From IMG/VR virus record IMGVR_UViG_3300004770_000144, positions 1-20,463 of that record: 20,463 nt of DNA, one strand, 5' to 3'. This document shows, piece by piece, positions 2,910 through 20,259 of this stretch (its first letter is position 1; every line of letters starts with the position of its first letter). The translations under genes were made by a program, and so were the position numbers. Origin of the DNA: a virus. The notes under the pieces were generated by a model, which was given only the letters and a program-made list of their open reading frames with translations, was not told the origin of the DNA and ran no database searches.

Positions 2910-3425
2910 ATGAATACAATTGAAATACCAATTCCGCGACAGTACAAATATACCAGCACCAAAGAATACCACGACGCATTTCCCTGCGCTTATCGCCAAT
3001 GGAGAGCAGACAGTCATTGTAACTTAATTCACGGCTATTCATTTAGTATGAAGTTTTACTTTGGAACAGACGATTTAGATGTACGTAACTGGGCTGCCGA
3101 CTACGGTGGTCTTAAAGAACTTAAAGGCATCTTAGAAAGTCAATTTGATCATACGCTATTAGTAGCCGAAGATGATCCAGAACTTGAAACTTACAAATTA
3201 CTACAAGAAAAAAATCTTGCTAAACTAACTATCCTACCAAAGTTAGGTTGCGAAGGTCTAGCAGATCAATTATACAAATATGTTAACGGTGTTTATATCC
3301 CGGATATGTGGGGTCAAGCAGAAGCAGATAGACTTTGGTGCTATCGCGTGGAAGTTAGAGAAACGCAAAGCAATATGGCATTCCGTGAAGGCCATCGTGA
3401 ATGGAATGAGGACTTGTTTGCGTGA
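2910..3425 (+). CDS. queD: QueD-type 6-carboxy-tetrahydropterin synthase / 6-pyruvoyl-tetrahydropterin synthase family
   Basis: This 171-aa protein belongs to the PTPS/QueD family. In the preQ0 pathway that family makes 6-carboxy-5,6,7,8-tetrahydropterin from the product of FolE. Visible features are FPCAYRQWRADSHCNLIHG (25-42), with Cys37 in the place of the catalytic Cys before the HG motif, DHTLL at 80-84, and VEVRET at 147-152, matching the C-terminal Glu motif. The usual zinc-binding His residues of AHR and HGH are Tyr here (Tyr28 and Tyr43), while His41 is kept. This may be a phage subfamily or an altered site. AGGAG lies seven bases before the ATG, and the stop overlaps the next GTG start. 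Confidence 0.82.
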   Translation: MNTIEIPIPRQYKYTSTKEYHDAFPCAYRQWRADSHCNLIHGYSFSMKFYFGTDDLDVRNWAADYGGLKELKGILESQFDHTLLVAEDDPELETYKLLQEKNLAKLTILPKLGCEGLADQLYKYVNGVYIPDMWGQAEADRLWCYRVEVRETQSNMAFREGHREWNEDLFA

Positions 3426-3691
3426 GTAAAGTAAATGAAATCCTAGACATACTCCAAGAGGAGTGTGCTGAAGTTATCCAGGCTATTAGCAAGATTCGCC
3501 GTTTTGGAATTGATAATTCGTACAAAGATGGCGGAACTCAGCGTGAGCATTTAGTACAAGAACTAGGCGATGTTACACTATTGATAGAACTATTAAAAGC
3601 TCATAGAGTTTTTACAGATGCAGAACTACGTGCGGCGCAGTTGCGTAAGAGTCAAAAATTAGTTGAATGGTCAAAAATATATGAAGATTAA
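3422..3691 (+). CDS. MazG-like nucleotide pyrophosphohydrolase
   Basis: The product is 89 aa and starts at GTG, overlapping the queD stop as GTGA. It has the all-alpha MazG/NTP-PPase pattern: LQEECAEVIQAISKIRRFG (an EE..E helix) near residues 11-29, then QELGDVTLLIELL (E..D) near residues 46-58. The acidic residues would bind Mg2+ for hydrolysis of nucleoside triphosphates to monophosphates. Phage MazG-like enzymes are proposed to adjust nucleotide or alarmone pools. Its position between queD and queE suggests it acts on nucleotides linked to deazaguanine synthesis, or clears unwanted ones. It is a single-domain form. Confidence 0.8.
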   Translation: MSKVNEILDILQEECAEVIQAISKIRRFGIDNSYKDGGTQREHLVQELGDVTLLIELLKAHRVFTDAELRAAQLRKSQKLVEWSKIYED

Positions 3692-4541
3692 AGTTAGCGA
3701 ATTATTTTATAGTTTACAAGGCGAAGGTCGCTTTGTTGGAGTACCCAGTGTATTTTTACGCACTTATGGCTGTAACTTCCAGTGTGCTGGATTTGGTTGC
3801 AAACCTGGAGAGAAATCAACAGGTGCAGACGAAGTTGCTAAGGTCGTAGACAAATATTCGACATTCTTGAGCTTGCCGTTAGTTGAGACAGGCTGTGATA
3901 GTTATGCGTCGTGGCATCCTGCATTTAAACACCTTTCGCCTACATTGACTACTGAAGAACTTGTAGATCAAATGTTAGCATTGACTCCTAACAACTGCTG
4001 GATACAAAACAATGGCAACGATGTACATTTAGTTATTACAGGCGGCGAGCCATTGTTAGGTTGGCAACGTGCTTATGCTGAATTACTAAGTCACCCACGC
4101 ATGGCAGACCTAAAGAACATTACATTTGAAACTAATGGTACTCAAGAACTACACGAAGACTTCCGCGATTACTTAATTGAATGGGCTAGTGAAAAGGCCG
4201 ATAGAGAAGTTACATTTAGTGTTAGTGCTAAACTAAGTGCGTCCGGCGAACTGTGGGAAGATGCTATTAAACCTAAAATTGTTAATATCTATCAAACATA
4301 CGGACATACATATCTTAAGTTTGTTGTAGAAACTGTAGATCACGTCAACGAAGCAGTTAGAGCTGTTGATGCTTTCCGTGCAGGTGGATTTAAAGGTGTT
4401 GTTTACTTAATGCCACAGGGCGGTGTTGTTACTCCGTATGATGCAAACAAATTAAACATTGCCAATATCTGTTGCGAACGTGGATTTAATTATAGCCCAC
4501 GACTACACGTAGACTTATGGGGCAACGGTTGGGGTAAGTGA
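3681..4541 (+). CDS. queE: QueE-type 7-carboxy-7-deazaguanine synthase (radical SAM)
   Basis: This 286-aa protein belongs to the QueE family, which uses a 4Fe-4S cluster and SAM to contract the ring of carboxytetrahydropterin into 7-carboxy-7-deazaguanine. It shows the N-terminal ELFYSLQGEGRFVGVPSVF, the cluster region RTYGCNFQC (Cys31, Cys35), TGGEPLLGW (SAM-binding, from residue 120), TFETNG, and the end SPRLHVDLWGN. The third cluster Cys is not in a standard CX3CX2C motif. Either Cys40 or Cys72 (in TGCDSYASW) must serve, and the CDS context favours Cys72 with an insert between. The ATG at 3681 is chosen over a TTG at 3663; it overlaps the mazG end by 11 bases. Confidence 0.88.
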   Translation: MKIKVSELFYSLQGEGRFVGVPSVFLRTYGCNFQCAGFGCKPGEKSTGADEVAKVVDKYSTFLSLPLVETGCDSYASWHPAFKHLSPTLTTEELVDQMLALTPNNCWIQNNGNDVHLVITGGEPLLGWQRAYAELLSHPRMADLKNITFETNGTQELHEDFRDYLIEWASEKADREVTFSVSAKLSASGELWEDAIKPKIVNIYQTYGHTYLKFVVETVDHVNEAVRAVDAFRAGGFKGVVYLMPQGGVVTPYDANKLNIANICCERGFNYSPRLHVDLWGNGWGK

Positions 4542-10830: not shown

Positions 10831-10833
10831 ACT

Positions 10834-10878
10834 GTTGTAAAAAAGCGACAGACCAAAAAACCCATTCTATAGTATACT
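10834..10878 (+). promoter_or_regulatory. Promoter for the SleB-type hydrolase (GTTGT/ACAGACC class)
   Basis: GTTGT (10834-10838), ACAGACC (10848-10854) and the -10 TATACT (10873-10878) share content and spacing with the promoters at 16475 and 18942. The spacer from ACAGACC to the -10 is 18 bases. The -10 is embedded in the perfect 10-base palindrome TAGTATACTA (10870-10879), a possible operator. Transcription should start near 10885. Confidence 0.6.
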
Positions 10879-10906
10879 AGCTGTATTGTAACTACTGTGG
10901 GTTTTT
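10856..10906 (+). repeat. Inverted repeat around the lysin promoter
   Basis: AAAAACCCA (10856-10864) and TGGGTTTTT (10898-10906) form a perfect nine-base inverted repeat with 33 bases between. The 3' arm ends two bases before the ATG of the hydrolase and overlaps GTGGG (10897-10901), the only candidate ribosome site. The promoter -10 box lies between the arms. A transcript made here lacks the 5' arm, while a read-through transcript has both. Confidence 0.55.
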
Positions 10907-10908
10907 GT

Positions 10909-11445
10909 ATGAACAACAAAATTACCATATTTTTTGGTATTGTAATTACTGTATTGTTAGTTAGATTGGATTTTAAAACCGAGTTACTTAATGATCGTGT
11001 AGACCAACTTGAAGATGTCGTTGTTAAAACCAATCACGGTATCAAGTACACTAAGAGCGACATTGATTGTTTAACTCGAAACATTTATTACGAAGCTGGT
11101 AATCAGTCCGATGTCGGCAAGTATGCTGTAGCCACAGTAACATTAAATCGCATACGTGCAGGCCGCTGGGGCGATACGGTATGTAAGGTTGTTTATGCCA
11201 AGGCGCAATTTAGTTGGACTATGGCTAAGAAGTTGCATAAGCCAGACCCCGACGTATGGCAACGTAGTCGAGACATTGCTGTTTCATCGTTGCATGGCTA
11301 TCGTGTGAAAAGCCTACAGAAAAGTCTACTTTATCATGCTGACTATATCAAAGCGCCAAACTGGGCAGATCCTTCGTACAAAATTACCCAAATTGGAACA
11401 CATATCTTTTATACTAAAGGCAAAGGTAGTACAATAAACATATGA
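10909..11445 (+). CDS. SleB-type cell wall hydrolase with N-terminal membrane anchor (endolysin candidate)
   Basis: This 178-aa protein has an N-terminal hydrophobic segment (ITIFFGIVITVLLV, residues 5-18) and a short heptad-like stretch (TELLNDRVDQLEDVV). A Hydrolase_2/SleB domain follows: CLTRNIYYEAGNQSDVGKYA, with Glu62 the expected catalytic acid, then VATVTLNRIRAGRWGDTVCKVV and AQFSWTM. This family cleaves peptidoglycan glycan strands, probably as a lytic transglycosylase. The anchor resembles signal-anchor-release endolysins, so it may act in the periplasm to cause lysis. The ATG at 10909 is preferred to a GTG four codons upstream. Its expression is likely controlled by the promoter and inverted repeat just upstream. 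Confidence 0.85.
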   Translation: MNNKITIFFGIVITVLLVRLDFKTELLNDRVDQLEDVVVKTNHGIKYTKSDIDCLTRNIYYEAGNQSDVGKYAVATVTLNRIRAGRWGDTVCKVVYAKAQFSWTMAKKLHKPDPDVWQRSRDIAVSSLHGYRVKSLQKSLLYHADYIKAPNWADPSYKITQIGTHIFYTKGKGSTINI

Positions 11446-13658
11446 AATATTATTGTGTAATGTATTGGTACACTACTAAACTTAACCGCAAGGTACATCA
11501 GGTTAAGAATGGTTCTGCACGACGTCGTGCCAATAGTGCCCGTGAAGCCGCAGAAATTCGTATTAAAGAACAAGTAACAGCCGCCAACTCTGCTGACCCT
11601 TACGAAATACTACACGTCGAGGACGTTAGCGATATATGCGAAACAGGCGAGAAGCACGAAAGTCTGAGTAAGTTGCGTCAACTCGAACAAGGTATTCTGC
11701 ACCCAAAGCAAAAGCGTATGGGCATGTGGGTTCCCAGTGACAACACCGCAAGCGAGTGGTTCTTTGATACTAAGCAAGAGTCAGTAGATAATGTAGTTGC
11801 TGTGGGCAAACAGTTAATCAACGAATGCCGGCACGGTGTTATGGCCTTAGAAGACTTTCCAGCATTTCCGTACCAACAGTCAATTGTTGATTGGGCCGCT
11901 GATAAATTCAATTCCGGCATCAATGATATTCTTATTAATGCTATTATGCGAGCAGGTAAGTGTTTTATTACATACGAAATTGCTCGTAAAATTAAAGCTC
12001 GCAAGATTTTAGTTGTTACAGCCAAGGTCGGTGTTAATGACAGTTGGTCTAGTTTATTGCCCAACGGAGAAGAAAGCCACGTCAATTATGCAGACTGGCA
12101 ATATCACGATTATAAAAAGATCAAGCATATTAAACCCACTAAGAATGTAGACGTGGTATTTGTCAGCTTGCAATTTATCAACAAGCATTTTGATAATCCC
12201 AATACCTTACTTGCTGATATTTTTAATACTGAATGGGATCTAGTTGCATTCGATGAACAACATTATGCAACAGAAACAGATAACACTCAACGCCTGTGGG
12301 ACACGTTAGACTTTAAAAATAAAGTTGAATTAAGTGGTACTCCATATAAGACTGTATTAAGCGGTCGGTACGAATCTGACAACATTTATAACTTCGACTA
12401 TGTAGATGAACAGGTATTACGACGTGAAGCACTTGTTACTCCGGATACTGTGTTAGCTCGAGCATTTAAGTATCGTGCTGATATTAATTATGCTATGGTT
12501 AATATCCCAGATAAAATTAAAGATATGTTAGGGGAAGATGGATTTACCTTTCCCAAACTATTTGCCACAGATAAAGTACAATTTAAGAATGTAATTGCTG
12601 TTAACGAGTTTCTAACTTTTGCTGTACAAACATATAAAAAGCCGCCGGCTCGTTTCCTTCCTTTTGCTGACATGTTGTCAAGACATGCTCTCTGGGTATT
12701 GCCTAATGATGTTGCGGCTATTAACGCATTAGAAAAGATGCTTAAAAAACATCCATTCTTTGGCAAACGTCGTATTATCAATGCCAGCGGTAAGGGTGTT
12801 AAAGATATTCAAACAGTCAAAGACCTAATCCAACGTGATACTATCGAAGGCGGTGTTGGTACAATTACACTTACCTGTGGACGATTCTTAGAAGGTACTA
12901 GTGTACCTGAGTGGTGGTCAGTACACCAAATGAACAACGACAAGAGTGCCGCAGACTATTTCCAAGGTAGTTTCCGTTGTAAGACTCCCAATGCCCGAGA
13001 CGAAAAAGCCAGTGTAATTGTATTTGACTATGCACCAGAACGTTTCGTTAGTGTAGTGTACCAACATTGCGAACGTGTAAGTGATCCTACTAAACCTGTT
13101 AGTAATATTATTAGTCAATGGTTAGATGTTAGCGAAGTATACGACTATACTGGTAACCAATGGAACATTATGTCCGGTGAAGATATCAGTCGACGTTTCT
13201 TAAGCGATATCAATAACTATATGGATCGAGTAGGACAAGCGGTAGATCCTGCAGGCATTGACGCCGGTATTATTCAACTGTTAGCAGATAAAAAGAAAGA
13301 TTCAAATCAAACTAGTGCCAAGAGTCAACTTAATGGAAATGATATATTAGAAGGTTCTAATAAGAAACGTGTGTTCAGTTCAGGTACACCAGTTAGCGGA
13401 TGGAAGAAACCTGTTGACCCAGCAGAAGCTGCCGAACAACAAGTACGATATGCTCTTAAGCAAATTTTCAAACTAATTGATGTAGGTTGGGCTGATAATA
13501 TTACATTCAGTAGTCTAACCGATATTATTCGCTGTAAGGATACAATGCTAGTAAACGAAATTACAGGGCTTACCCCCGATGAATGGAAGGAAATCTTGCC
13601 TGCTGTAAACCAGGTTGTTATTAACCGAGCAATGGGCCAATACAATGATTTCCAATAA
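11442..13658 (+). CDS. Superfamily 2 (DExH) helicase / translocase
   Basis: This 738-aa protein starts as ATGA over the hydrolase stop. Residues 1-135 are an N-terminal region not recognised. The helicase core follows: a Q-like FPYQQSIVDW (142-151), an unusual Walker A reading IMRAGKCF (168-175), motif Ia LVVTAKVGV, DEQH (271-274) as Walker B, SGTP (298-301) as motif III, TLTCGRFLEGTSVPEW (476-491) as motif V, and YFQGSFRCKTP as motif VI. It resembles the motor subunits of type I/III restriction enzymes and phage UvsW-type helicases. No nuclease motif is seen. A linker (about 640-665) precedes a helical C-terminus. The two methyltransferase-like genes that overlap behind it suggest joint action on DNA. 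Confidence 0.85.
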   Translation: MKYYCVMYWYTTKLNRKVHQVKNGSARRRANSAREAAEIRIKEQVTAANSADPYEILHVEDVSDICETGEKHESLSKLRQLEQGILHPKQKRMGMWVPSDNTASEWFFDTKQESVDNVVAVGKQLINECRHGVMALEDFPAFPYQQSIVDWAADKFNSGINDILINAIMRAGKCFITYEIARKIKARKILVVTAKVGVNDSWSSLLPNGEESHVNYADWQYHDYKKIKHIKPTKNVDVVFVSLQFINKHFDNPNTLLADIFNTEWDLVAFDEQHYATETDNTQRLWDTLDFKNKVELSGTPYKTVLSGRYESDNIYNFDYVDEQVLRREALVTPDTVLARAFKYRADINYAMVNIPDKIKDMLGEDGFTFPKLFATDKVQFKNVIAVNEFLTFAVQTYKKPPARFLPFADMLSRHALWVLPNDVAAINALEKMLKKHPFFGKRRIINASGKGVKDIQTVKDLIQRDTIEGGVGTITLTCGRFLEGTSVPEWWSVHQMNNDKSAADYFQGSFRCKTPNARDEKASVIVFDYAPERFVSVVYQHCERVSDPTKPVSNIISQWLDVSEVYDYTGNQWNIMSGEDISRRFLSDINNYMDRVGQAVDPAGIDAGIIQLLADKKKDSNQTSAKSQLNGNDILEGSNKKRVFSSGTPVSGWKKPVDPAEAAEQQVRYALKQIFKLIDVGWADNITFSSLTDIIRCKDTMLVNEITGLTPDEWKEILPAVNQVVINRAMGQYNDFQ

Positions 13659-14820
13659 CATTCGCCAACGTATCAAGCAAATAAAGCTGTACAGTAGCCA
13701 AGGCAATCAAACTATATTGTCTGAAACTAATGCTCGTATTTTGCTGTCGTACATTAAGGAAAAAGATCTTAAGGATCCTGCAACCACCTATTGCGATCCA
13801 CAATGTGGTAGCGGTAGCATTATGCTGGTTCTAGCTGATATTCTTATGGAAAAGCTGGCCAAAGCCATCCCAGATGAACAAGAACGCCTAGAACATATCT
13901 TTCAAAATCAAATCTTTGTTAACGATATTAATAGTGTACAAGCTCGTATTGCCCGTAGCAATTTTAAACGTGCTGTAAACAATAAAGACTTTGAAGTTAA
14001 TGTAACCGAAAAGAACTGTTTTAACATTGAAGATCGCTATACCTATGTAATAAGTTCTGTGGATTTTAAAACTATTAATAGTTTTGTACCCGTATGGCGA
14101 TTACAATGTCAACGATTAATTATTGTTAGTCGTTCCAATAAAATCGACTACTCGTCGCATAAGATTAACGAAATTTCCGTATTCAGACACTTAGAAAGAA
14201 CTTCTAGTAGTTTGCTGTCAATGATGATATTTGAGCCTGTTAAAAAGAATAAAATTGTTGAGTTTACCGATGGCGAAACTATTCTTAAAATTGATAGCCC
14301 AGCACGGTTGCCCGGCCTAGATCTTAAACTGTATGCCTACGCACACGAAGTATGCAGTCTTGGGTTACCGGGCATTAATGCCAACTACGGATCTTATGTG
14401 TCCAATCACGAAAAGGTATTAAACAATCCTGGTCGTGTTCCGCTTATCTATCAAGTTGGCCCAAAGGGCAAAGGCTTCTTAAAAGTAATCAAGGTAAGTG
14501 CTAAGATCATTACACCACAAGAAGGGGTAGGATTGCACAAAGTAGTTATTAGTAAGAACGGTAATCCCAATAATCAAAGTGTGTTAAAGTACGCCGGTCC
14601 CGAATACGGTACAGGACATAATGCACTATGGATCGAAGTCGCTGATCCTGAAGAAGCAGACAAAATGATCAAGTATTGGGAAAGTGCTCCTATACGAGCA
14701 TTGAGCCTATCACTTAATGCTAACAATCCGGCCAATGGAAAAGGATTCTGGCTTGACATTCCTACAAGAGATAACTATAATAAAGTAAAACAAATCTATG
14801 ACAAGTATTACAAATCCTAA
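13645..14820 (+). CDS. DNA methyltransferase-like protein lacking the catalytic motif
   Basis: The product is 391 aa; the ATG at 13645 overlaps the helicase end by 14 bases. Residues 25-135 match an adenine-type DNA methyltransferase: LSETNARILLSYI, the SAM-binding motif I YCDPQCGSGS (49-58), and FVNDINSVQARIAR (91-104). Where NPPY is expected, the sequence reads VISSVDF (135-141), so the catalytic Asn-Pro-Pro-Tyr is absent. The C-terminal half has a beta-rich part with VISKNGNPN and ALWIEVADPEEADKMIKYW, which resembles the target-recognition region of type IIG enzymes. It may bind SAM or DNA without methylating and serve as a specificity or regulatory partner of the helicase. Confidence 0.7.
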   Translation: MISNNIRQRIKQIKLYSSQGNQTILSETNARILLSYIKEKDLKDPATTYCDPQCGSGSIMLVLADILMEKLAKAIPDEQERLEHIFQNQIFVNDINSVQARIARSNFKRAVNNKDFEVNVTEKNCFNIEDRYTYVISSVDFKTINSFVPVWRLQCQRLIIVSRSNKIDYSSHKINEISVFRHLERTSSSLLSMMIFEPVKKNKIVEFTDGETILKIDSPARLPGLDLKLYAYAHEVCSLGLPGINANYGSYVSNHEKVLNNPGRVPLIYQVGPKGKGFLKVIKVSAKIITPQEGVGLHKVVISKNGNPNNQSVLKYAGPEYGTGHNALWIEVADPEEADKMIKYWESAPIRALSLSLNANNPANGKGFWLDIPTRDNYNKVKQIYDKYYKS

Positions 14821-15967
14821 AATCCTTACATATTATAATGATCTATGCACCGCATGGAATTTTACACCAACGGATAAAGTTTGTACTGGATATGAAAGTG
14901 TTACACCGCAATTAAAAGCTCTAGGTAAAGCTGCTTGGTCGGCTGCCGATGACGCTGGTAAGGAAGAAATACAACAACGAGTATTTGATATCTATCGATC
15001 AATTAATATTGTTCCTATTACTTACTATAACCTAGAAGGTTGTCGTGAACAATTAATTGAATTGTCAACTAAAACTAAAAGTGTCAAAGACCGCACACTA
15101 GGCGTTGGTAATAACGAAGGCCTTGGATTTGGTCGCTTTTGGTTTGAAAACATGCAAGATGCTTATACAAGAAAAGACAAAGAAGTCAGTACCCGCGGTC
15201 GCTTCCTTAACGATGCAAAATTAAAACGTGCAATTAAATTATGTTATGTTAATCGCGATGAAGGTGAATTTACTGTATTACCAAAGAATATTCGTCGTGC
15301 ATTAGAACTAGTAAGTGGTGGTAGCATTCAAAACTTTAAACCAATGAACGCCAGAGCAATGTGGGAATACCTGTGCCCTAACTTCATGGGCAATGTTCTA
15401 GACTTTAGTTCAGGCTACGGCGGTCGCATGATGGGTGCAATGACTAGTAAAATGAGATATCATTATACTGGTATTGATCCGAATACTCGAACATTCAATG
15501 GTCTTGATGCACTAGGTGATTTATTACTTGAATGTAATCTTGGCCAAGGTTATAGTATGAACCATTGCACCAGCGAAGAATTTGATCCAGAACCAGAATA
15601 TTACGATGCAGCTTTTAGTAGCCCACCATACTTTAATTTAGAAACCTACTCGGATGAAGAAACACAATGTATGAATCGTTGTAGTAATTTAGATGCCTGG
15701 TTTGAACTGTATGCTGAACCAACACTTAAAATGATTCATAAAGGACTATCTAGTGAAGGGCTGTATGCTGTAAACATTGCTGACTATAAAACCGGCAAAG
15801 AGCAATTTGCTATAGTTGATCGCTGGAAAAACCTAAGCGAAAAAGTGGGTTTTGAGTACCAAGAAACTGTAGATATGATGCTAAATGTACGCCCGGGAGT
15901 GGGCAATAATAAGCTAGAAAACGGGTACAAAAGCGAAGGAATTTACGTTTTTCGCAAAAAACCCTAA
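14798..15967 (+). CDS. DNA methyltransferase (SPPY, beta-class N4/N6 type)
   Basis: This 389-aa protein starts inside the previous gene (23-base overlap). The first 190 residues are not recognised and include VGNNEGLGFGRFWFENM, possibly for target recognition. The methyltransferase core then appears: VLDFSSGYGGRMMGA (200-214, SAM-binding motif I), YTGIDPNTRTF (the acidic residue contacting SAM), and FSSPPYFNLETYS (273-285, the SPPY catalytic motif), followed by EGLYAVNIADY. The order of motif I before SPPY is that of N4-cytosine or N6-adenine enzymes of this class. It probably methylates phage or host DNA; specificity is unknown. A strong terminator follows 24 bases after the stop. Confidence 0.82.
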   Translation: MTSITNPKILTYYNDLCTAWNFTPTDKVCTGYESVTPQLKALGKAAWSAADDAGKEEIQQRVFDIYRSINIVPITYYNLEGCREQLIELSTKTKSVKDRTLGVGNNEGLGFGRFWFENMQDAYTRKDKEVSTRGRFLNDAKLKRAIKLCYVNRDEGEFTVLPKNIRRALELVSGGSIQNFKPMNARAMWEYLCPNFMGNVLDFSSGYGGRMMGAMTSKMRYHYTGIDPNTRTFNGLDALGDLLLECNLGQGYSMNHCTSEEFDPEPEYYDAAFSSPPYFNLETYSDEETQCMNRCSNLDAWFELYAEPTLKMIHKGLSSEGLYAVNIADYKTGKEQFAIVDRWKNLSEKVGFEYQETVDMMLNVRPGVGNNKLENGYKSEGIYVFRKKP

Positions 15968-15991
15968 TAAAAACAACAACTTAGCTACTTA

Positions 15992-16019
15992 AAATACCGC
16001 TTTTTAGCGGTATTTTTTT
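15992..16019 (+). terminator. Strong intrinsic terminator
   Basis: A perfect ten-base stem (AAATACCGCT at 15992-16001 and AGCGGTATTT at 16006-16015) has a four-base TTTT loop and runs into seven T residues (16013-16019). It closes the lysin, helicase and methyltransferase transcript. The next promoter starts within three bases of its end. Confidence 0.93.
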
Positions 16020-16021
16020 GG

Positions 16022-16050
16022 TTGACCCGAAATGGCCTCTCCTATATAAT
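16022..16050 (+). promoter_or_regulatory. Promoter for the 94-aa gene
   Basis: TTGACC (16022-16027) is followed after 17 bases by TATAAT (16045-16050). The segment from 16024, GACCCGAAATGGC, matches 12 of 13 bases of the segment at 18959 before the VWA gene, at the same distance (21 bases) from the -10. It directly follows the terminator, so this gene is separately controlled. Confidence 0.75.
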
Positions 16051-16080
16051 GTATGTATAGTGATTAATAAGGAGCTAAAA

Positions 16081-16365
16081 ATGTTGAAATTTGCTAACTT
16101 TGCTAAAAATGGTCAAACAATCCGTGCATACGATTTCAAGCCAATGGCAGGTCGTGAAGATTGTTATGTTGAAGGCGTTGTAGAAGCAGCAAATTGTAAC
16201 GAGCCTGGCTATAATTGTTTTAAAATTACCGTTACCAAAGATGTATTTGATGGTAAGGAATCTGTAGAACGTGGTCGTGGTTGCCGTGTTGGTCAGATTG
16301 TGTTTGTACCACACCAAGTAAGTTTTATGGAATATGATGCACGTATTTTGAATCTGAGCGAATAA
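16081..16365 (+). CDS. Small phage protein in its own transcription unit
   Basis: This 94-aa protein has an excellent AAGGAG (16069-16074) six bases before the ATG. It reads as a small beta-rich protein: RAYDFKPMAGREDCYVEGVV, then FKITVTKDVFDGKE, and RVGQIVFVPHQVSFMEY. I recognise the DFKPM.GR.DC.VEG pattern only as an orphan of T4-like phages. It is flanked by a strong promoter and terminators on both sides, making it one of the few genes here with a dedicated unit, which suggests high expression. Possible fold: SH3/KOW-like beta barrel, not proven. Confidence 0.78.
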   Translation: MLKFANFAKNGQTIRAYDFKPMAGREDCYVEGVVEAANCNEPGYNCFKITVTKDVFDGKESVERGRGCRVGQIVFVPHQVSFMEYDARILNLSE

Positions 16366-16410
16366 GGCTGTAATGGGGTCGTGCGATCCTTGGGGAGCCT
16401 TGATACCCCA
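16364..16410 (+). promoter_or_regulatory. Structured RNA in the 3' region of the 94-aa gene (possible pseudoknot)
   Basis: Three pairings can be drawn. GGGTC (16376-16380) pairs with GATCC (16385-16389), with one G-U pair. TGGGG (16391-16395) pairs with CCCCA (16406-16410). The loop AGCCTT (16396-16401) pairs with AAGGCT (16364-16369), which overlaps the stop codon. Together they form a pseudoknot-like fold before the terminator. It may protect the mRNA 3' end or be a small RNA. Confidence 0.35.
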
Positions 16411-16429
16411 GAAACTTGCGGTCACTTTT

Positions 16430-16468
16430 TGCTGGTTTTTGACCTAAAATAAAAACTAGCACTTTTTT
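16430..16468 (+). terminator. Intrinsic terminator after the 94-aa gene
   Basis: TGCTGGTTTTT (16430-16440) pairs with AAAAACTAGCA (16451-16461) over 11 bases with one G-U pair and a ten-base loop. A run of six T (16463-16468) follows. An alternative short pairing GGTCA (16420-16424) with TGACC (16440-16444) would compete with it. The stretch 16366-16551 holds no gene: it contains the structured RNA, this terminator and the next promoter. Confidence 0.75.
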
Positions 16469-16474
16469 AAAGTA

Positions 16475-16519
16475 GTTGTATTAAAACTACAGACATAAAA
16501 TGAAGTGTTGTTGTATAAT
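16475..16519 (+). promoter_or_regulatory. Promoter for the MoxR-type ATPase (GTTGT/ACAGAC class)
   Basis: GTTGT (16475-16479), ACAGACA (16489-16495) and TATAAT (16514-16519; 18-base spacer) match the layout of the promoters at 10834 and 18942. Over the 21 bases from GTTGT to the end of the ACAGAC box, it shares 17 with the VWA promoter. The -10 is perfect, but the box at -35 does not resemble TTGACA, suggesting an activator or modified polymerase. Confidence 0.7.
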
Positions 16520-16551
16520 TTGTATATCAATTAACAAAAAGGAGTTTTTAA

Positions 16552-17652
16552 ATGTCCGTGACTGAGAATCGTAGTGTTAGCCCTACAGAAGCCCGTAGCC
16601 GTATCTTACGTTGTTTCAAAAATAAACGTCCAGTATTCCTATGGGGTCCTCCCGGAATTGGTAAGAGCGAAATCGTTGCAAGTTTAACTGAAGAACTTGG
16701 CGGCCATATGATTGACTTACGTCTAGGTCAAATGGAGCCGACAGATATTCGCGGTATCCCATTCTTTAATAAGAACAAAGAAGTTATGGATTGGGCTCCC
16801 CCAATTGACTTGCCAGATGAAGAACTTGCTAGTCAGTATCCTATCGTTGTCCTGTTCTTGGACGAAATGAACTCTGCGGCACCTGCTGTACAGGCCGCTG
16901 GTTATCAGCTGATTTTGAATCGTCGTGTAGGCAAGTACAAGTTGCCAGACAATGTAGTTATTGTTGCTGCAGGTAACCGTGAGTCAGACAAAGGTGTTAC
17001 ATATCGTATGCCTACTCCACTTGCAAACCGTTTCGTTCACTTGGAAATGCGTAAGGACTTTGACAGCTGGTTTAACTGGGCTGTAAACAATCAAGTTCAC
17101 CAAGATGTAGTAGGTTACTTGAGCTACGCTAAACAAGACTTGATGGACTTTGATCCTAAGTCAGCTAGCCGTGCATTCGCTACTCCACGCTCTTGGACAT
17201 TCGTGTCACAATTCTTGGATGATAAGGATGCAACAGACGCAGAACTTACAGACTTGATCGCAGGTACTGTAGGCGAAGGTCTAGCTGTTAAGTTTATGGC
17301 ACACCGTAAGGTTGCAGGACAAATGCCTAACCCAGAAGATGTATTGTCTGGCAAGGTAAATGAACTCAAAGTCAAAGAAATCTCAGCTATGTATTCGTTG
17401 ACTATTAGCCTGTGCTATGAACTGCAAGAACAGTACAAGAAACTTGGTAAGGATAAACTTGCTGATTGGCATAAACAAGCCGATAACTTCTTGAAGTTTA
17501 TGATGGCGAACTTTACTACAGAGTTGGTTGTTATGGGTGCTCGTGTTGCATTGACTACTTATAACTTGCCAATGGTACCAGGTAAAATGGCATCGTTTGA
17601 TGAGTTCCACAAGCGTTTTGGCAAGTATATTATTGCCGCGAGTGGTAAGTAA
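16552..17652 (+). CDS. MoxR-type AAA+ ATPase
   Basis: This 366-aa protein has AAGGAG (16539-16544) seven bases before the ATG. It has the AAA+ elements in order: Walker A GPPGIGKS (32-39), the MoxR-like LRLGQMEPTDIRGIP (57-70), Walker B FLDEMN (102-107) followed by SAAPAVQAAGYQLILNRRVG, sensor 1 AAGNRE (139-144), and the Arg finger region PLANRFVHLEM (156-166). The C-terminal half is helical. MoxR ATPases usually work with VWA-domain proteins to remodel or assemble other proteins. A metallopeptidase-like/VWA gene lies 1.4 kb downstream behind a near-identical promoter. The target in the phage cycle is unknown. Confidence 0.9.
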   Translation: MSVTENRSVSPTEARSRILRCFKNKRPVFLWGPPGIGKSEIVASLTEELGGHMIDLRLGQMEPTDIRGIPFFNKNKEVMDWAPPIDLPDEELASQYPIVVLFLDEMNSAAPAVQAAGYQLILNRRVGKYKLPDNVVIVAAGNRESDKGVTYRMPTPLANRFVHLEMRKDFDSWFNWAVNNQVHQDVVGYLSYAKQDLMDFDPKSASRAFATPRSWTFVSQFLDDKDATDAELTDLIAGTVGEGLAVKFMAHRKVAGQMPNPEDVLSGKVNELKVKEISAMYSLTISLCYELQEQYKKLGKDKLADWHKQADNFLKFMMANFTTELVVMGARVALTTYNLPMVPGKMASFDEFHKRFGKYIIAASGK

Positions 17653-17680
17653 AGACTTTTCGCTAGCTAGTCACTGGCAC

Positions 17681-17710
17681 GGAGGCAGGTCCCTTTCCCG
17701 TAAGTCCTCC
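17681..17710 (+). repeat. Hairpin with a buried GGAGG
   Basis: GGAGG (17681-17685) and CCTCC (17706-17710) are perfect inverted repeats 20 bases apart. GGAGG is a near-ideal ribosome site but lies too far (33 bases) from the ATG at 17719 and could be paired. No T run follows, so it is not a standard terminator. The element may tune translation of the next gene or stabilise the ATPase mRNA end. Confidence 0.4.
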
Positions 17711-17718
17711 AACTTATT

Positions 17719-17919
17719 ATGAACTATGATTTTTGCGAAGAACTAGATACACCAGAAATCATGGTGATACTTAATAAACATTGGTGGTACGCAAATGCTG
17801 CAGATATTACTGAATGGTTTAAACAGTCAAGTGCCACAGCGTTTGGTAATAATAGTATGATGTTGTTTATACCAGAACCAGCTGATCGTACATATTTTAT
17901 GCTAAGGTGGCCGCAATGA
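17719..17919 (+). CDS. Hypothetical small phage protein
   Basis: The product is 66 aa, with no obvious ribosome site directly before its ATG. It is acidic at the start (YDFCEELDTPEIM), aromatic in the middle (KHWWYANAADITEWF), and ends with LFIPEPADRTYFMLRWPQ. The ending resembles that of the 102-aa protein at 18184-18492 (LYFKDEATASAFMFHWNP), so the two may share a small domain. Its stop overlaps the next ATG (ATGA). It sits between the ATPase and the VWA gene, and may belong to their unit. Confidence 0.6.
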   Translation: MNYDFCEELDTPEIMVILNKHWWYANAADITEWFKQSSATAFGNNSMMLFIPEPADRTYFMLRWPQ

Positions 17920-18197
17920 TTATCGAAGCAGTTATACTAGCCCTAAGTATCAGTAGCGTTGTTAGTACAGAAACTACAGGTAAAGGTATCACTGATCATG
18001 CAATAAGTATGGCAAATGGTAAGGATTGTAAAATGGCAAGGATGGTACACGATGAAAAAATCTGTCAAGACGAACCCGAAGGTACAGTCACCGTTACTGC
18101 CGCACCAGCAACAATTCGTGCAGTGGGCACCGACTCAGTTACGCGGGCAAATGACGTCTTTGCGGCAAGAGCGAGGAAGTCCAATGAAACTCGTTAA
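17916..18197 (+). CDS. Small protein with N-terminal hydrophobic segment and paired Cys
   Basis: This 93-aa protein begins at an ATG that overlaps the previous stop. The first 20 residues are hydrophobic (MIIEAVILALSISSVVSTE) and could be a weak signal peptide or anchor. GKGITDHAISMANGKDCKMARMVHDEKICQD follows in two parts (GKGITDHAISMANGKDCK and ARMVHDEKICQD), with two Cys that could form a disulfide after export. I have a memory of similar TTGKG..DH..S...DC...R pattern proteins in bacteria and phages, all of unknown role. The Ala/Thr/Val-rich tail overlaps, in another frame, a possible longer N-terminus of the next gene. Confidence 0.62.
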   Translation: MIIEAVILALSISSVVSTETTGKGITDHAISMANGKDCKMARMVHDEKICQDEPEGTVTVTAAPATIRAVGTDSVTRANDVFAARARKSNETR

Positions 18198-18492
18198 ACT
18201 AGACCGCAGGCATACCGGTCATCAGTTTTTAGCCTATTATGTAGAACCGGGCAGAACTTGGGCAATCGGTAAAAGTACAGAAGAAAGAGTTGAACAGTTT
18301 TTTGAATGGCGTAATTGGTGTTGGGAAGTATTCGGCCCGGGTGTTGAACGTAAGTGGATTACCTTACATCCAACTGGAAAGGGATTAGAAAGCCTAAATC
18401 GTTGGTGCTGGCACACTGAGTATGACGAGATGCGGTTATATTTTAAAGATGAGGCAACAGCCAGTGCCTTTATGTTTCACTGGAACCCATAA
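18184..18492 (+). CDS. Hypothetical phage protein, Trp-rich
   Basis: The product is 102 aa from the ATG at 18184, which has GAGGA (18173-18177) six bases upstream. An earlier in-frame ATG at 18052 also has AAGGA (18038-18042) nine bases upstream and would add 44 residues (starting MKKSVKTNPKV) in the same bases that encode the end of the upstream protein. The core is aromatic: FLAYYVEPGRTWAIGKS, FFEWRNWCWEVFGPG, and LNRWCWHTEYDEMRLYF. It ends like the 66-aa protein at 17719. The function is unknown. It overlaps the next gene start by one base (TAATG). Confidence 0.65.
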   Translation: MKLVKLDRRHTGHQFLAYYVEPGRTWAIGKSTEERVEQFFEWRNWCWEVFGPGVERKWITLHPTGKGLESLNRWCWHTEYDEMRLYFKDEATASAFMFHWNP

Positions 18493-18932
18493 TGGAAGAT
18501 GATCTATTTTTTAAAAGATTCCCTGTAGAAAAACAGGAACAGGTTAGACAGTTAGTTGCCTATGCTCAACTCATGGGCTTGGATGGCAAGGACCTGGTCA
18601 GTATCGGCGGTAAGCTGGATCGTATTAAAGCATCAGCTGAATATCGTCGTAACCGGAGCTTGATCGAAACATCCTTTAAGTTCTTATACGTAGGTAAGGA
18701 CTCAAGTGAGTATCAACTAAACAGTCGCTGGCGTATTAAGACCACTGGGGGTAGTTATACGTTTGAAGCACGTGGTTGGGATACTTACCGTGTTCGTAGC
18801 AATAAAACCGATGCTGTCCGTGAACACAGGGTTACTGCGGACTATAGCCTAGGCACCGGTGATTATTACAAACGGCGTCGCTATGCCGTTATGTTAGACG
18901 TTGCACACGGTGTTTTTCCGCTGAATTTCTAG
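18492..18932 (+). CDS. Hypothetical phage protein
   Basis: This 146-aa protein begins with an acidic, helical segment (MEDDLFFKRFPVEKQEQVRQ, then LVAYAQLMGLDGKDLVSIGG). It is followed by a basic region and a beta-rich C-terminal part (FKFLYVGKDSSEYQLNSRW, SYTFEARGWDTYRVRS, YYKRRRYAVMLDVAHGVF). No membrane segment or catalytic motif is seen. I know it only as a phage orphan type. It is the last gene before the promoter of the VWA gene, with a 79-base gap after the stop. Confidence 0.7.
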   Translation: MEDDLFFKRFPVEKQEQVRQLVAYAQLMGLDGKDLVSIGGKLDRIKASAEYRRNRSLIETSFKFLYVGKDSSEYQLNSRWRIKTTGGSYTFEARGWDTYRVRSNKTDAVREHRVTADYSLGTGDYYKRRRYAVMLDVAHGVFPLNF

Positions 18933-18941
18933 GTAAAAAGT

Positions 18942-18985
18942 GTTGTTTTTAGACTACAGACCAGAAATGGCAAAAGTAGTATAAT
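18942..18985 (+). promoter_or_regulatory. Promoter for the metallopeptidase/VWA gene (GTTGT/ACAGACC class)
   Basis: GTTGT (18942-18946), ACAGACC (18956-18962) and TATAAT (18980-18985; 17-base spacer) match the class seen at 10834 and 16475. The segment GACCAGAAATGGC (18959-18971) also repeats 12 of 13 bases of the promoter at 16022. The predicted start is near 18992, giving a leader of about 20 bases that holds AAGGA (18998-19002). Confidence 0.7.
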
Positions 18986-19011
18986 ATGTATATTGATAAG
19001 GAATCGTGACT

Positions 19012-20259
19012 ATGACTACAGCAGAATTAAACAAACCTAAAACAGTAACAGACCCCAAAGTAGATGCTGCCGCACGTGAAAAACTGATTACCGCACGTAT
19101 TGGTTTATTGCTTAAAGCACCATTCTTTGGTAATCTTGCTACTCGTATGAACTTGGTAAATGGCGACGACTGGTTGCCAACAGCCGCAACAGACGGGCGT
19201 AGGTTTTATTACAATTCAGAGTTCGTTAATAAAATGCCATTGAAACAAGTTGAATTTTTAGTTGGGCACGAAGTATTACATGCGGTATATGATCACATGG
19301 GACGTCGAGATAGCCGTGATCCTAAGATTTGGAATATTGCCGATGACTTTTGCGTTAATGCTGATTTAATTGACCAGCGTATTGGCGAAAAGATTACTAT
19401 ATGCGGTGTATTGTACGATCCTAAGTACAAAGGTATGAGTGCCGAAGAAGTCTACGATGATTTGATGAAGAATGCCAACAAGATTAATATGGACGATCTT
19501 GCTAAGATGTTGTTGGACGAACACTTAGATGGGGACGAAGGCGACAGCGATGGTGAAGGCAATAAAGATGGTAAAGGTCGTCCTCGACTAAGCGATGCTG
19601 AGAAGAAGGCCATCCGTGACGAGCTTAAAGAAGCTGTTATCCAGGCTGCACAGGCCGCAGGTGCAGGTAACTTGCCAAGCGGTGTTAAGCGTCTTATTAA
19701 GGACTTAACAGAACCACAGATTGGTTGGAAAGAATTGTTGGAGCAACAGATTCAAAGTACTATTAAGAATGACTATACCTTTGCACGTCCTGGTCGTAAA
19801 GCCTGGCACATGGATGCTATTTTGCCAGGTATGAAACCCGGCGAAACAATTGATGTGTGCATTGCACTAGACACATCTGGTAGTATCGGGCACGACGATA
19901 TCAAGTGCTTCTTAAGTGAAATCCGTGGTATTATGGAATCGTATGATGAGTACAATATCAAGGTTTGGACATTTGATACAGAAGTGTACAATCCACAAGA
20001 TTTTAACTCAGACAACATGCGTGATATTGCTGAATATGAACCACAAGGTGGCGGTGGTACAGACTTTGAAGCCAACTGGGAATTTATGAAGGCCGAAGGT
20101 ATTGAACCTAAGAAATTTATCATGTTTACTGACGGTATGCCATGTGGTGGTTGGGGAGATGAATTGTACTGTGATACTGTATGGATTATTAAAGGTAATC
20201 CTAACTGTGAGCCACCATGGGGCATTTGGGCACACTACGAAGAGGAAGCTCGTAAATGA
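19012..20259 (+). CDS. Metallopeptidase-like/VWA-domain protein (DUF2201 type), partner of the MoxR ATPase
   Basis: This 415-aa protein starts at the ATG at 19012, nine bases after AAGGA; a GTG at 19006 is too close to it. The N-terminal half matches the putative metallopeptidase domain of DUF2201-type proteins: FLVGHEVLHAVYDHMGRR, with HEVLH at 86-90 as the zinc motif, and WNIADDFCVN (107-116). An acidic linker (about 169-187) follows. The C-terminal VWA domain has a full MIDAS: DTSGS (287-291), Thr350 in GGGGTDF, and Asp374 in FTDGMP. Proteins of this build pair with MoxR ATPases. Whether the protease-like part cleaves is unknown. Confidence 0.88.
   Translation: MTTAELNKPKTVTDPKVDAAAREKLITARIGLLLKAPFFGNLATRMNLVNGDDWLPTAATDGRRFYYNSEFVNKMPLKQVEFLVGHEVLHAVYDHMGRRDSRDPKIWNIADDFCVNADLIDQRIGEKITICGVLYDPKYKGMSAEEVYDDLMKNANKINMDDLAKMLLDEHLDGDEGDSDGEGNKDGKGRPRLSDAEKKAIRDELKEAVIQAAQAAGAGNLPSGVKRLIKDLTEPQIGWKELLEQQIQSTIKNDYTFARPGRKAWHMDAILPGMKPGETIDVCIALDTSGSIGHDDIKCFLSEIRGIMESYDEYNIKVWTFDTEVYNPQDFNSDNMRDIAEYEPQGGGGTDFEANWEFMKAEGIEPKKFIMFTDGMPCGGWGDELYCDTVWIIKGNPNCEPPWGIWAHYEEEARK

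Follow-up and report, generated by a model that had tools for sequence, protein, structure and literature searches.

Results

The window analysed here is a complete IMG/VR record of 20,463 bp; in reversed orientation it matches bases 1 to 20,463 of contig G021 (41,246 bp) with 100% identity. A DNA comparison with annotated phage DNA revealed nothing resembling it. The pattern GTTGT-N9-ACAGAC occurs in the window exactly three times, always on the plus strand and always between genes, and precedes the genes for a cell wall hydrolase (the lysin), a MoxR-type AAA+ ATPase and a metallopeptidase-VWA protein (Table 1). The MoxR protein shares 53% identity with the MoxR of jumbo phage PA5oct. Genes which by eye appear phosphoribosyltransferase-like, QueD-like and QueE-like (7-deazaguanine pathway) are located at 1552-2100, 2910-3425 and 3663-4541; the corresponding region of PA5oct includes a QueE-like gene, and QueD and QueE PHROGs match in the 354-kb contig G049.

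The original prediction had described the three intergenic sites as GTTGT, ACAGAC[CA] ending at base 21 and a -10 box after 18, 18 and 17 bases, with the MoxR and VWA copies identical at 17 of the 21 bases, and this description proved accurate in every detail. By chance, 0.010 exact matches would be expected per window, a value that applies to a pattern picked after the fact. The consensus of the class, as derived here, reads TGTTGY-N6(A-rich)-RCNACAGAC-N18/19-TATAMT.

Table 1. Promoter sites, leader elements and genes of the window
Feature	Position	Strand	Remark
Ordinary TTGACC-17-TATAAT promoter without dyad (internal comparison)	16022..16050	+	precedes gene at 16081
Site 1 dyad TGTTG-TAAAAAAG-CGACAGAC, upstream of lysin	10833..10853	+	matches 81-site profile
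Site 1 CAGACC on -35 position	10849-10854	+	
Site 1 -10 box TATACT	10873..10878	+	19 bases past ACAGAC; predicted start ~10885
Lysin leader hairpin 5' arm AAAAACCCAT	10856..10865	+	upstream of predicted start
Lysin leader hairpin 3' arm GTGGGTTTTT	10897..10906	+	shortly before ATG at 10909
Lysin, cell wall hydrolase	10909..11445	+	PF07486, E 2e-21; ATG 10909 lines up with relatives' starts
Site 2 AGTTG-TATTAAAA-CTACAGAC, upstream of MoxR	16474..16494	+	
Site 2 CAGACA on -35 position	16490-16495	+	
Site 2 -10 box TATAAT	16514..16519	+	predicted start ~16526
MoxR-type AAA+ ATPase	16552..17652	+	
Site 3 TGTTG-TTTTTAGA-CTACAGAC, upstream of VWA gene	18941..18961	+	
Site 3 CAGACC on -35 position	18957-18962	+	
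Site 3 -10 box TATAAT	18980..18985	+	predicted start ~18992
Metallopeptidase-VWA protein, MoxR partner	19006..20259	+	DUF2201_N E 3e-40 plus DUF2201

Abundance and specificity of the motif

When the 41,246-bp contig was scanned with a matrix built from the three sites, these scored 27.4-28.7 and the next match, located inside a gene, reached 12.3; the top score in random 41-kb sequences was 20.7. A scan of IMG/VR contigs totalling 6.8 Mb, which were either related or picked for the motif, yielded 100 distinct sites scoring at least 24, of which 94 were intergenic and 93 showed the 18-bp spacing, while reversed-sequence controls over the same 6.8 Mb yielded none. As this pool was partly fetched for its motif content, the density of sites should not be taken as representative, unlike the intergenic fraction, the spacing and the control. 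Five of the six sites within genes lay in short predicted ORFs of at most 127 aa. The motif is found before genes and not inside them, and so withstands the refutation test set by the original prediction.

A pattern search of viral contigs with GTTG-N8-CNACAGAC-N17-19-TATAAT gave at least 85 distinct matches, with 67 among those listed being intergenic and having the 18-bp spacing. Relatives were also searched for ACAGAC combined with a -10 box, GTTG being left free, and 13 sites between genes proved to have a good -10 box. In all 13, G-T-N-G stands as a half-site 8 bases before CNACAGAC, and it is lacking in every match within genes. The half-sites included the variants GTAG and GTGG, CNACAGAC appeared once as the variant GTCTGCTA, and one locus (L041) exhibited a perfect GTCTGTGG-N8-CCACAGAC. 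The motif therefore marks a real and specific promoter class, which reaches well beyond the window. In the cultured MoxR jumbo phages PA5oct, Phosso, Atu_ph07 and SCTP-2, searched with one mismatch allowed, matches were mostly at control level and lacked the A-rich spacer.

Across 85,000 bacterial and archaeal genomes (257 Gb, with a looser -10 box) the pattern is mostly found within genes and at chance level: among the 105 distinct matches listed, 89 lay within genes, and no spacing was preferred, including the 18-bp spacing. This bears on the idea that the phage has borrowed a regulator of its host, which would fit with its use of host-type promoters throughout and with a search for a phage-encoded regulator that found none (see below). 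A host regulon would be expected to produce sites between genes, provided that the host clade is represented among the 85,000 genomes, and we regard a host regulator as very improbable.

Near-complete genomes contain few sites, often upstream of MoxR and/or its vWA partner: two each were present in G008 (374 kb), G049 (354 kb) and G028 (338 kb), and none in G015 (355 kb). With only about two sites in each of the near-complete contigs of 338-374 kb, the class is not a genome-wide one like the T4 MotA middle promoters, with which the original prediction had compared it. So few sites per genome are also unusual for a dedicated activator, which counts against an activator. On a 12-kb contig (G052), four dyad-class sites follow each other in series (L410, 3490-5605), each upstream of its own small gene annotated without a function, so that one promoter class serves a whole cluster of small genes.

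Anatomy of the promoter class

In a profile of 81 sites, the upstream GTTG forms the other half of an inverted repeat which is centred near -42.5, as numbered from the start set by the -10 box and a Y-W-Y signal. The symmetry extends to positions that were not seeded, namely T before GTTG (0.79), Y after GTTG (1.00) and R before CNAC (0.99), and the spacer between the two halves is A-rich. The Y-W-Y signal after the -10 box is what the original prediction had noticed as a shared TGTATA; it is real as a start-site preference, but these phages' ordinary TTGAC promoters have it too, and it is thus not specific to the dyad class.

The upstream box had been judged not to be a sigma70 -35, which is correct in that the TT is lost; yet CAGAC[AC] lies exactly at -35 and keeps the GAC of TTGACA. 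The dyad occupies the class position in 72 promoters. Nearly all of them have CAGAC[ACGT] as their -35 hexamer, with T-35 and T-34 at 0% and the following G, A and C at 0.90, 0.89 and 0.96. Conversely, the pool also contains 370 distinct TTGAC-TATAAT promoters, none of which carries the dyad there. This exclusivity matters for a dimeric repressor that would sit on the -35 and keep these genes off early in infection. An inverted repeat across the -35 is a standard repressor position too, and a lysin is a gene which a phage would repress early. A repressor, however, needs no loss of the -35 TT, which is missing from all promoters with the dyad at 22, and no intact TTGAC promoter with an overlapping dyad was found even though TTGAC and a lone GTTG half would be compatible. 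Repression appears rather unlikely on these grounds.

No covariation of the kind expected for base pairing links the two halves of the dyad: Watson-Crick pairs were observed at 0.42 for the Y/R positions, with 0.51 expected, and at 0.38, with 0.37 expected, for the central positions; C-A and T-C frequently oppose each other. This favours a protein dimer bound to DNA. That the repeat acts as a nucleic-acid hairpin or is a mobile repeat is hardly probable: similar inverted repeats do precede other promoters and, at close range, intrinsic terminators, and their outer flanks covary somewhat, but neither the missing covariation in dyad-class sites nor their rigid 18-bp spacing to the -10 box fits with it.

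The dyad, without AGAC, is also found before terminators and, at distances of 28-55 bp, upstream of promoters whose -35 is retained. Given these other locations, it looks like a portable binding site and not like part of a new -35. This counts against sigma appropriation, in which a phage factor would change sigma region 4, as AsiA/MotA do in T4, so that CAGAC becomes the preferred -35. The location of CAGAC precisely at -35, TAGAC intermediates at 6 of 131 MoxR promoters and late-sigma-like proteins (PHROG hits in G049) would all be in line with such a change. It leaves unexplained, though, the conserved GTTG half, the upstream Y/R symmetry and the dyads that lie farther upstream where a promoter has retained its TTG box. 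No AsiA or MotA match was obtained in any of 13 genomes, with positive-control genomes likewise giving no match. Sigma appropriation appears about as improbable as repression. A modified polymerase, which the original prediction had offered beside a phage activator, is not needed, given how common standard TTGAC-17-TATAAT promoters are in these genomes; the other suggestion of the original prediction, an activator-dependent phage promoter, remains the best reading.

Several arrangements of the dyad outside the class position were noted. In G049 at 192-207 kb (L552, L553) and elsewhere, the dyad lies about 10 bp farther upstream of promoters with TTGTCC, TTGCTC or TAGACC -35 boxes; these precede small genes, and several are nearly identical. 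At L159, L257, L202 and L430, and in G015 at 47796 and 331199, the dyad directly follows a stop codon, with an intrinsic terminator and then a promoter behind it. A strict helical phasing, at which first counts hinted (22/32/42), was dismissed as the full histogram showed a spread with loose clusters, and the -35 boxes were not clearly weaker where the dyad lies farther upstream; both findings count against an activator.

Genes served and exchange of promoter types

Where the downstream ORF was readable, it encoded MoxR in 35 cases, VWA in 11, an ATPase-like cluster in five and lysin in four; lipoprotein-like and many small unknown proteins were found in addition. The regions upstream of MoxR in about 75 related contigs fall into two types, having either TTGAC-17-TATAAT or, at the place of TTGAC, CAGAC preceded by GTTG-N8-CN. 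A comparison of two of them before the -10 box, TTTGACTGCAAAAGACATCTTTAG (L005) and CAACAGACAAATAAAGACATCTTTAG (L013), illustrates the difference: TTGACT in the one and ACAGACA in the other stand on a common spacer, and GAC thereby aligns with GAC.

The 131 distinct MoxR promoters comprised 73 of the TTGAC type, 40 of the dyad class, 6 with TAGAC and 12 others; of the VWA promoters, 11 of 119 belonged to the dyad class. On a MoxR gene tree (FastTree), the promoter type changes at least 15 times, compared with a mean of 34.6 and a minimum of 29 for shuffled labels. Contigs containing both genes had the class at both in five cases and at MoxR only in 17, so strict co-regulation of MoxR and VWA is not general. 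In the phage of the window, lysin, MoxR and VWA all have it. The literature searched contained no report of a MoxR-vWA pair controlled by one shared promoter class.

Leader of the lysin gene

In all five dyad-class lysin leaders examined (the window and four relatives) inverted arms flank the -10 box and the predicted start, and the 3' arm immediately precedes the start codon. The arms differ in sequence, namely ACCCA/TGGGT, AATACC/GGTATT, TCCCCAAAA/TTTTGGGGA, ACCCAAAA/TTTTGGGGGT and GCCC/GGGC, and the z-scores of the fold are modest (-1.6 to -3.8). RNA reading through from upstream would mask the translation start, whereas RNA from the local promoter would not.

Search for the regulator

For Ogr_Delta, no match above the cut-off was found in 20 genomes, mostly fragments, and for HTH_3 there was likewise none; the HTH_3 controls matched, as did E. 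coli among those for Ogr_Delta. That no regulator emerged counts against the activator reading. The conserved small proteins of the 354-kb G049 showed no classical DNA-binding domain among the best 25 Pfam families each, and a home-made helix-turn-helix model gave no credible match. Gene content pointed to 53 genes that are shared by three motif-bearing large contigs and absent from the motif-less one, none of which is obviously a regulator, and small neighbouring genes gave no signal. Late promoters of the type TATAAATA are lacking in the window. In G049, G028, G008 and G015, TATAAATA (T4-late-like) sites are mostly intergenic and upstream of genes, in agreement with the late-sigma-like PHROG hits; as the control pattern overlapped, no enrichment figure is claimed for them.

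Discussion

In many uncultured giant phages a mirror-image site replaces the usual upstream promoter signal at a few genes, among them those for virion-assembly helper proteins and a lysis enzyme, which suggests that a so far unknown phage activator times the genes concerned. Judged from the arrangement of the sites, these are probably sigma70-type promoters which depend on a dimeric, and likely phage-made, activator at a dyad about 42.5 bp upstream of the start. A dimeric DNA-binding protein would bind the inverted repeat TGTTGY-N6-RCNACA(GAC) and adjoin or cover sigma region 4, thereby making up for a -35 reduced to GAC, with the polymerase continuing to use a normal -10 box and start. The promoter would be silent or weak before the activator appears, and we propose that this would delay the lysin, MoxR with its vWA co-chaperone and a small number of further genes. 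For the lysin the delay might be a double one, as read-through transcripts would fold and mask the start site, while transcripts from its own promoter would start within the hairpin and lack the 5' arm.

More tentatively, a large group of uncultured jumbo phages may encode a class II activator that is dimeric and belongs to a family not yet described, with a tiny assembly-and-lysis regulon which orthologues enter or leave by swapping TTGAC for GTTG-N8-CNACAGAC, and in which the lysin promoter would be nested in an RBS-hiding hairpin, convergent with T4 gene e. In any case, a sharply defined promoter class is now available for large uncultured phages, and the predicted regulator has a known site, which could be used as a duplex of TGTTGCATAAAAACAACAGAC to fish for it. 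The repeated swap of two promoter types at one gene constitutes a natural experiment on regulon entry and exit. The class also offers a timing handle on MoxR-vWA, a known chaperone pair of jumbo phages which includes a vWA protein with an N-terminal metallopeptidase and has been proposed to act in virion assembly (PMC7824862); the window proteins have the same domains.

Several known promoter systems resemble the class in part. In class II activator-dependent sigma70 promoters (CRP-type), the activator site is centred near -41.5. The dyad class shares with them a twofold site, here near -42.5, on the upstream edge of and overlapping a weak, degenerate -35, combined with an intact TATAAT -10 box and a normal start. 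It differs in the dyad sequence, in that the GAC of the -35 is retained in about 90% of cases and in that the candidate activator is possibly a phage protein. T4 middle promoters also have a phage-specific element in place of a full -35 and a sigma70-like -10 box. There, the -35 gives way to the MotA box, whose centre lies at -30 (PMC6755090), whereas here the dyad at -42.5 overlaps a -35 that is half kept, including its GAC, and sites are few per genome; an assignment to MotA/AsiA middle promoters was therefore rejected.

The site of the P2 activators Ogr/delta is centred near -55. The consensus of the P2 late promoters, TGT-N12-ACA (PMC3931495), is matched by 76 of 100 dyad-class sites, but the inner letters differ, annotated P2 sites do not match the dyad and the centre lies at -42.5; together with the lack of an Ogr_Delta match above the cut-off, this led us to reject a P2-type late promoter. 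The lysin leader finds its counterpart in T4 gene e, where inverted arms mask the lysozyme start in read-through RNA and a local late promoter starts within the hairpin (PMC3014915). In all five lysin leaders studied here, an RBS-hiding stem is likewise predicted in the read-through RNA, with the predicted promoter start inside. The inner promoter of T4 is a TATAAATA late promoter, in contrast to the dyad-CAGAC-TATAAT class found here, and the lysin here is a cell wall hydrolase. By analogy with T4, this likeness would argue that the dyad class is not an early one.
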